The notes below the pieces were generated by a model. It saw only the letters and a list, made by a program, of their open reading frames with translations. It did not search any database and was not told the DNA's origin. This document shows positions 23,390 through 24,522 of a DNA stretch of 37,410 nucleotides, in pieces. Origin of the DNA: Gemmatimonadota bacterium (GTDB lineage Bacteria; Gemmatimonadota; Gemmatimonadetes; Gemmatimonadales; Gemmatimonadaceae); NCBI GenBank assembly GCA_021324775.1, contig JAJPIM010000028.1, forward strand, positions 1-37,410, read 5' to 3'. A program made the translations under genes and the position numbers. Position 1 is the stretch's first letter. Each line of letters begins with the position of its first letter.

Positions 23390-23818
23390 CTACGCTCCCT
23401 TGGCAATCGGCGACCGCACCGCATTCCCCCACTCGGTCCAACTGCCATCGTAATTCCGCACCTTGGGATACCCGAGCAGATACGTCAGTACGAACCACGT
23501 GTGCGACGACCGCTCGCCGATGCGGCAGTACGCGATCACGTCGTCCGATGACTTGAGACCCTGCTCCGTCTCGTAGATCGCCCGCAGATCCGCGGCCGTC
23601 TTGAATGTCCCGTCCGGATTCGCGGCCCGAGCCCACGGCACGCTCTTCGCGCCCGGGATGTGGCCGCCCCGCAGCGTGCCTTCCTGCGGATAGTCGGGCA
23701 TGTGGAGCTTCTCGCCGGTGAACTCCTGCGGCGACCGCACGTCGACGAGCTTGCCCTTGTGCTGGCGGACTTCCGCGAAGAACGCGCGGATCGCACTGTC
23801 CGACCGTTCGTGCGCCAC
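23390..23818 (-). CDS. Thiosulfate sulfurtransferase, C-terminal (catalytic) rhodanese half
   Basis: This is the second rhodanese domain of a CysA-type sulfurtransferase. Motifs are [40 protein letters not shown] and the active-site loop [16 protein letters not shown], with the persulfide-forming Cys and its surrounding CRIGERS loop. It lies in the same reading frame as the N-terminal half. The stop TAA at 23819-23821 is followed without a gap by GTG at 23816-23818, which could re-initiate translation and give 142 residues. In intact homologues the two domains form one chain of about 280 residues. Either the pair is a split but functional enzyme, or the TAA is a disabling mutation or sequencing error. 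Confidence 0.8.
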
Positions 23819-24292
23819 TTATTGCGTCGCCGGATAGTGCGGCACATCGGTCGAGGTCGGCCGTCCCTCCGCTTCCCACTTGCTCCGCCCGCCGTCCACG
23901 AGCCGCGTGTTCGTGAACCCGAACAGCTTGAACACCCAGAACGCGTACGCCGCCCACCAGTTGTTCTTGTCGCCGTAGAACACGACGGTCGTGCTGTCGT
24001 CGATGCCGAGCCGGCGGAGCAGTGCCTGGAATGCCTCGCGGGTGAGATAGTCGCGGATCACGGGATCATTGAGGTCCTGGTGCCAGTCGATCTTCTGTGC
24101 GCCTGGGATATGGCCCGTATCGTAGAGCAGGACGTCTTCATCGCTCTCCAGAATGCGCACTTTCGGGTCCGTGAGATGCTCGGCGACCCACGCCGTCGTC
24201 ACCAGGACTTCGGGATGCACGTATCCCTTCGCGACGATCGCGGGATCGGCTCCCGCCTTTGGAGAGCCCGGTGCTGTTGTGGTTGGTGCCAT
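23819..24292 (-). CDS. Thiosulfate sulfurtransferase, N-terminal rhodanese half
   Basis: The first domain of a two-domain sulfurtransferase, which moves sulfane sulfur from thiosulfate to thiol acceptors. It has [40 protein letters not shown] and [20 protein letters not shown], where the usual catalytic Cys is replaced by Asp (YGDKNN), as in the non-catalytic first domain of this family. It ends at HYPATQ followed by TAA, exactly where intact homologues continue into the catalytic domain. The start ATG at 24292 has GGAG 6 nt upstream; an ATG at 24316 directly abuts the terminator T-run. Regulation is probably by the upstream leader. Confidence 0.85.
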
Positions 24293-24316: not shown

Positions 24317-24349
24317 GAAAACAAAAACCGGCCGCCTTCGAGCGGCCGG
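24317..24349 (-). terminator. Intrinsic terminator in the leader of the sulfurtransferase gene (attenuator)
   Basis: On the minus strand CCGGCCGC (24342-24349) pairs with GCGGCCGG (24328-24335) around a 6-nt loop, and the stem is followed by TTTTTGTTTTC (24327-24317). This is a textbook intrinsic terminator located between the promoter/leader ORF and the gene start at 24292. GCGGCC at 24409-24414, inside the leader ORF, is complementary to GGCCGC within the left arm and could form a competing structure. Confidence 0.85.
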
Positions 24350-24383
24350 CCGGTCTGGCGTGCGCGGTCTTCGGGTTCGTCTG

Positions 24384-24485
24384 CTACGCCGCGCGCACAT
24401 TCCGTCCGGGCCGCATGAGAGCGGCGCAGGCACGACAACACATGCAGGAAGGGCGGGACGGGCGGCGGCAGAAGCGCGAGGTCAT
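24384..24485 (-). CDS. Cysteine-rich leader peptide (putative cysteine attenuator uORF)
   Basis: An ATG at 24485 opens a 33-codon ORF ending at TAG (24384-24386). It encodes five cysteines at positions 6, 14, 16, 17 and 20, the core being [15 protein letters not shown]. The MCCRA core resembles the CCRA-type leader peptides known upstream of sulfur genes in actinobacteria, where ribosome stalling at Cys codons controls downstream expression. There is no ribosome-binding site; the predicted transcription start falls at or one base before the ATG, so translation would be leaderless. The ORF stop is 35 nt before the terminator stem. A shorter start at the internal ATG (codon 15) is possible. Translation is not proven. 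Confidence 0.6.
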
Positions 24486-24492
24486 TGCGCGT

Positions 24493-24522
24493 AGGCTACA
24501 CAGCGGCGGAGCGGCCTGTCAA
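24493..24522 (-). promoter_or_regulatory. Sigma70-like promoter of the leader peptide and sulfurtransferase
   Basis: On the minus strand a consensus -35 box TTGACA (24517-24522) is separated by 18 nt from TAGCCT (24493-24498). Seven nt separate the -10 box from the leader ATG, placing the start of transcription at or next to it. Confidence 0.65.

Follow-up and report, generated by a model that had tools for sequence, protein, structure and literature searches.

We found, upstream of a sulfurtransferase gene of a Gemmatimonadota bacterium, a short cysteine-rich leader ORF followed by an intrinsic terminator, and this arrangement is very probably a cysteine-responsive, ribosome-mediated transcription attenuator of the trp/his type with Cys-tRNA as its signal. 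This reading, which the first-pass annotation had put forward for the locus, was supported by a conserved Cys cluster, the promoter spacing, the terminator and family-wide pairing tests, all of them comparisons of sequences. The whole device lies on the minus strand of the window, i.e. the complete stretch of 37,410 nucleotides analysed here, and comprises the following features:

24517..24522, minus strand: -35 element TTGACA, read from the sequence; present in most sulfurtransferase leaders of the relatives.
24493..24498, minus strand: -10 element TAGCCT behind a spacer of 18 nt, read from the sequence; transcription predicted to begin at 24485 or directly beside it.
24384..24485, minus strand: Cys-rich leader ORF of 33 codons with an ATG start, probably leaderless; homologues in relatives.
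24426..24446, minus strand: putative regulatory Cys cluster, codons 14/16/17/20 (TGC ATG TGT TGT CGT GCC TGC), retained in relatives.
24421..24425, minus strand: segment 1, GCCGC, able to pair with segment 2 in a putative protector hairpin (-9.5 kcal/mol).
24406..24414, minus strand: segment 2, GCGGCCCGG, encoding RPG, putative antiterminator half; its pairing with segment 3 (-21.1 kcal/mol) was assessed by family tests.
24341..24353, minus strand: segment 3, CCGGCCGGCCGCT, 5' arm of the terminator (stem part 24349-24341) and common to the antiterminator, from sequence and folding.
24318..24336, minus strand: segment 4, GGCGGCCGG (24336-24328), and T-tract TTTTTGTTTT (24327-24318), 3' part of the terminator, read from the sequence.
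23390..24292, minus strand: two-domain rhodanese-family sulfurtransferase, the putatively regulated gene; its intact homologue L003 matches PF00581 twice.

The promoter had been described as TTGACA-18-TAGCCT, 7 nt ahead of the leader ATG, and this description was confirmed (24522-24517, 24498-24493 and ATG at 24485). A scan for promoters of the TTGAC type recognised one in 17 of 32 leaders, and in 14 of these 17 the -10 element ended 6-9 nt ahead of the start codon. For L013, L167 and L168 this distance amounted to 13-16 nt from the scored ATG, with other in-frame ATGs in between. The spacing of 6-9 nt agrees with a leaderless start of the leader ORF and is the one line of evidence that would place this ORF at the RNA 5' end, as is characteristic of the mycobacterial poly-Cys leaders.

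The leader ORF itself also matched its earlier description as an ATG-initiated frame of 33 codons with five Cys, two of them adjacent, within the first 20 codons (Cys at codons 6, 14, 16, 17 and 20). Taken alone, the window was marginally enriched in Cys (5 vs 2.45 in dinucleotide shuffles, p = 0.07). Over the 19 sulfurtransferase leaders, window included, the Fisher combined p was 2.5e-7 against a conservative shuffle, a value that is optimistic because the leaders are related; TGY codons were distributed over frames 0/1/2 as 70/35/13. Conserved bases between Cys codons that are themselves lost in close relatives would have spoken against a regulatory cluster, and the comparison gave the opposite result: the Cys codons were retained or more numerous and the adjoining codons varied, as seen in the clusters MCACCRAAHRWPGG (L013), MCACCRAACRWPGG and MCACCCQAAERWPGG. 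The segment MCCCACTAARRPGR of L003, aligned with a 14-residue segment of the window leader, likewise kept the cluster with different flanks.

Ahead of the gene, the annotated intrinsic terminator was present, its stem counting 9 bp and not the 8 bp given before (24349-24341 / 24336-24328, GC, -18.4 kcal/mol, followed by TTTTTGTTTT). The start of the gene had been placed on an ATG touching the T-run, and this had to be corrected: ATG 24292 behind CTGGAG is likelier, with the T-tract ending 25 nt earlier. The gene contains an in-frame TAA (23821-23819) that separates its two rhodanese domains and is directly followed by a GTG; the closest relative encodes Tyr at this site. The sulfurtransferase may therefore be split or missing as a product; alternatively, the base could stem from an error in the assembly.

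The complementarity of GCGGCC in the uORF (24414-24409) to the 5' arm of the terminator was found as annotated. In the window alone it was unexceptional for such GC-rich DNA (p = 0.195); the proposed pairing was supported by the shuffle and partner-swap tests over the whole family. Compared with shuffles, the 2:3 complementarity gave a combined p = 9e-7 for 17 sulfurtransferase leaders and p = 1.5e-11 for leaders of other genes (n = 12), the former again optimistic through kinship and the latter slightly favoured by the covariance search model, which contains segment 2. When terminators were swapped among 26 leaders, segment 2 paired better with its own terminator and 0 of 2000 permutations was as good (p about 0.06 for the sulfurtransferase leaders alone). 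Across the family, complementarity goes along with co-variation. The pairing of the 3:4 stem was kept as well, own vs swapped, though its sequence varied.

Within the family, segment 2 mostly started about 14-25 nt past the last clustered Cys codon, and its GCGGCC(C)GG, complementary to the terminator 5' arm CCGGCCGC, encoded a recurrent RPG. L203 and L178 had different pairing sequences, each of which still matched its own terminator arm. The 1:2 hairpin that is possible in the window appeared in several predicted folds, and the antiterminator was the best predicted structure in L004, L005 and L058. Equilibrium folding with a masked ribosome gave mixed results, with the terminator winning in every state in many leaders; this may be expected if kinetics decide.

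From these parts we infer an order of transcription start, stalling and switching that would put the gene under the influence of cysteine. As the promoter spacing suggests, the first transcribed nucleotide would be the A of the leader ATG or a neighbour of it, and the ribosome would therefore load on the RNA 5' end without a Shine-Dalgarno site. With charged tRNA-Cys in plentiful supply, it would pass the Cys cluster, and segment 2 would be covered or held in the 1:2 hairpin, so that the terminator would form from segments 3 and 4 and RNA polymerase would stop before the sulfurtransferase gene. In the window, segment 2 would lie out of reach of a ribosome that has come to rest at the stop codon; here the off-state would have to depend on timing or on the 1:2 hairpin. 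With charged tRNA-Cys scarce, the ribosome would stall on Cys14-20 and cover segment 1, the position of which would fall under a ribosome stalled at Cys17/Cys20. Segment 2 (GCGGCC-CGG) could then pair with segment 3 (CCGGCCGC), no terminator would form and the gene would be transcribed.

The leader could instead act on the downstream ribosome-binding site by translational attenuation, the hairpin mattering little. Such a mode of action was described for the leaderless poly-Cys leaders of M. smegmatis (Canestrari et al. 2020), as reported in PMC13236596; the study is also cited in PMC9094748. For the present device we consider this improbable to a high degree, since nearly all leader-bearing loci have a hairpin and a T-run separating the leader from the gene, the pairing of this hairpin is kept while its sequence varies, segment 2 is complementary to the terminator arm, and the gene's ribosome-binding site is located downstream of the T-run.

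Transcription attenuation is also in line with the distribution of the device. A search for the sulfurtransferase covered 60 related genomes. In all, the same order of parts preceded sulfurtransferase genes in 19 Gemmatimonadota leaders (the window and 18 other genomes). The layout was shared by two genomes of the same genus, a further genome of the family and some less closely related ones, with examples in L003 (MSFRDRMCCCACTAARRPGRSALAA), L004 (MIAAFAAKCCASACAAAPRPAWGSRTM), L005, L013, L027 and L031; these leader-bearing loci were placed in Gemmatimonadota, with Gemmatimonadaceae as the nearest named relatives. In the alignment of upstream regions that the first-pass annotation had proposed, the ATG, the promoter spacing, the terminator and the Cys codons were all kept. 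In 110 sulfurtransferase upstream regions, 13 had both a terminator and a C(x)C uORF, 8 a terminator only, 9 a uORF only and 80 neither, a co-occurrence with Fisher p = 1.8e-6, uncorrected for kinship. Against the attenuator reading stand the in-frame stop of the window's gene and the many orthologous sulfurtransferases that had no leader. A tree of 116 sulfurtransferase proteins, in which the leader was clustered, required at least nine gains or losses; the leader has therefore come or gone repeatedly. The device was not seen in the actinobacterial sulfurtransferase loci of the sample. A similar layout occurred in five Chloroflexota loci (L049, L055, L066, L095 and L102). Two of these leaders, L095 and L102, end in CCxxVDC-stop and are followed by a terminator of different sequence; in L095, GTTGACT stands behind the Cys pair and is matched by AGTCAAC in the arm of the terminator.

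With covariance models derived from the leaders, the 60 relatives and 395 genomes of the phylum were screened, and more Cys-rich leaders with the same kind of terminator behind them were retrieved. Examples preceded CysH and then a SIR-like gene (L120, leader ...NECACACECGCECARA...), a sulfite/nitrite reductase family gene (L175), the siroheme synthase CysG (L174), HemD (L159, leader ...VCCRAAQSAACCCCC...), an OAH/OAS sulfhydrylase (L178) and ThiS/SAMP1 (L182). Further examples stood before OsmC (L121, L176 and L185), a JAB protease (L203), a TonB receptor (L199), PanB (L181) and a RimK-like ATP-grasp protein (L122). In the window's own genome the one strong match was the window locus itself; three weaker matches (L164-L166) were not attenuators, and a search for cysH in this genome found none. 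L158, L177, L180, L184, L190, L191, L193 and others were ordinary terminators without a Cys leader and were set aside. An internal control was provided by L186 in genome G042, where an aromatic leader (MSARRYSWYWYGPAG, with SWYWYG) and a terminator precede a DAHP synthase gene, which indicates that leader composition fits the pathway in this phylum. Met-rich or Met/Cys leaders were observed in L172, L173, L181 and L188, where a terminator of the same kind separates them from PanB and aminotransferase genes.

The spread over many genes also bears on the possibility that the uORF encodes a functional small Cys-rich peptide, for instance one binding metals or thiols, and that the terminator merely ends its transcript. 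The phylum does hold another small Cys-rich ORF followed by a terminator-like hairpin (L192 in genome G236, MMDDTEPCCDCECCKDGCCGGDCC), the product of which may be a metal-binding peptide. The sulfurtransferase leader peptides, however, differ greatly in length (21-58 aa) and sequence, their constant parts being the Cys cluster and the pairing segment that encodes RPG, and leaders repeatedly precede sulfur genes, which leaves a functional peptide with a still smaller chance than translational attenuation. Least probable of all is a chance GC-rich ORF beside the ordinary terminator of an upstream gene: the same form of terminator does follow unrelated genes in these genomes (L158) and the Cys content of the window alone is marginal, but this reading is already contradicted by the association with sulfur genes and by relatives that conserve the ATG, the Cys cluster, the frame and the spacing.

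Besides the attenuator proper, ten of the Gemmatimonadota loci found with the leader model carried a match to the SAM_alpha/SAM-II riboswitch (RF00521) upstream of the leader: L120 (1314-1384), L173, L176, L178, L181, L182, L185, L187, L188 and L196. Eight matches were at or above the gathering score, those in L178 and L182 below it. The SAM-II element, in most cases with a hairpin and T-run of its own, directly precedes a Cys or Met/Cys leader with the second terminator. Eight of the ten loci have Cys-containing leaders that were used in the family tests; the remaining ones, L173 and L188, are loci of aminotransferase genes. SAM-II was present in 144 of 151 genomes of the order, and none of its 30 highest-scoring sites matched the Cys leader model, so the coupling concerns a subset. 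The arrangement may possibly work as a two-input switch in series. For the phylum as a whole, we think the balance tilts towards an RNA-based cysteine regulon, made of terminator-bearing leader-peptide attenuators that were repeatedly gained or lost before sulfur genes and that partly stand in series behind a SAM-II element with its own terminator; transcription of the latter genes would need both low SAM and low charged tRNA-Cys.

If this holds true, a cysteine regulon would become readable in a poorly studied phylum, and sulfur functions could be assigned to unknown genes downstream of such leaders. Terminator-based cysteine attenuation would then exist beside the actinobacterial form, and the combination of SAM-II riboswitch and peptide attenuator would represent natural series circuits.

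An Rfam search of the window returned only a tRNA, with no match of the leader to a T-box, a SAM riboswitch or any other family. No paper on Cys attenuators in Gemmatimonadetes or Chloroflexi was found, nor any description of leader-peptide attenuation in Gemmatimonadota in the searchable literature. The principle of attenuation by a Cys leader is already known; what is new is its form and the phylum, Gemmatimonadota. The first-pass annotation had taken a Cys attenuator with an intrinsic terminator outside actinobacteria to be new, and in this it was anticipated by uORFC-8-2, proposed earlier before cysS of Rhodobacterales, where an intrinsic terminator follows tandem Cys codons (PMC8632094). 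The device shares with uORFC-8-2 the tandem Cys codons in a uORF, the terminator behind them and the proposed logic. It differs in phylum, in the seemingly leaderless leader of the window and in the many sulfur genes concerned; uORFC-8-2 has its tandem Cys near codons 14-15, whereas the Cys pair of the window occupies codons 16-17 before a sulfurtransferase gene.

Seliverstov et al. 2005 (PMC1262725) described Cys leaders of mycobacteria, Propionibacterium and Bifidobacterium in which no obvious terminator was seen. Like the mycobacterial poly-Cys attenuators, the present device has a short ORF with a Cys cluster before sulfur or cysteine genes, and its promoter spacing suggests a start at the RNA 5' end as in those attenuators. 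Unlike them, for which translation attenuation is the reported mode of action, it carries in Gemmatimonadota an intrinsic terminator together with a matching antiterminator segment. For other amino acids, intrinsic terminators behind leaderless leader peptides have been described, as in leuL2, trpL1 and ilvL of Streptomyces (PMC8079986), and trpL of S. meliloti is a leaderless ribosome-mediated transcription attenuator that likewise has an intrinsic terminator (PMC7298713). With the trp/his/leu attenuators, leaderless ones included, the device has in common a cluster of regulatory codons retained among relatives, competing hairpins with a leader segment that in the family can pair with the terminator arm, an intrinsic terminator between leader and gene, and a gene in the metabolism of the sensed amino acid (here a sulfurtransferase, in relatives CysH, SIR, CysG, a sulfhydrylase and others); it differs from them in that the amino acid sensed would be cysteine.
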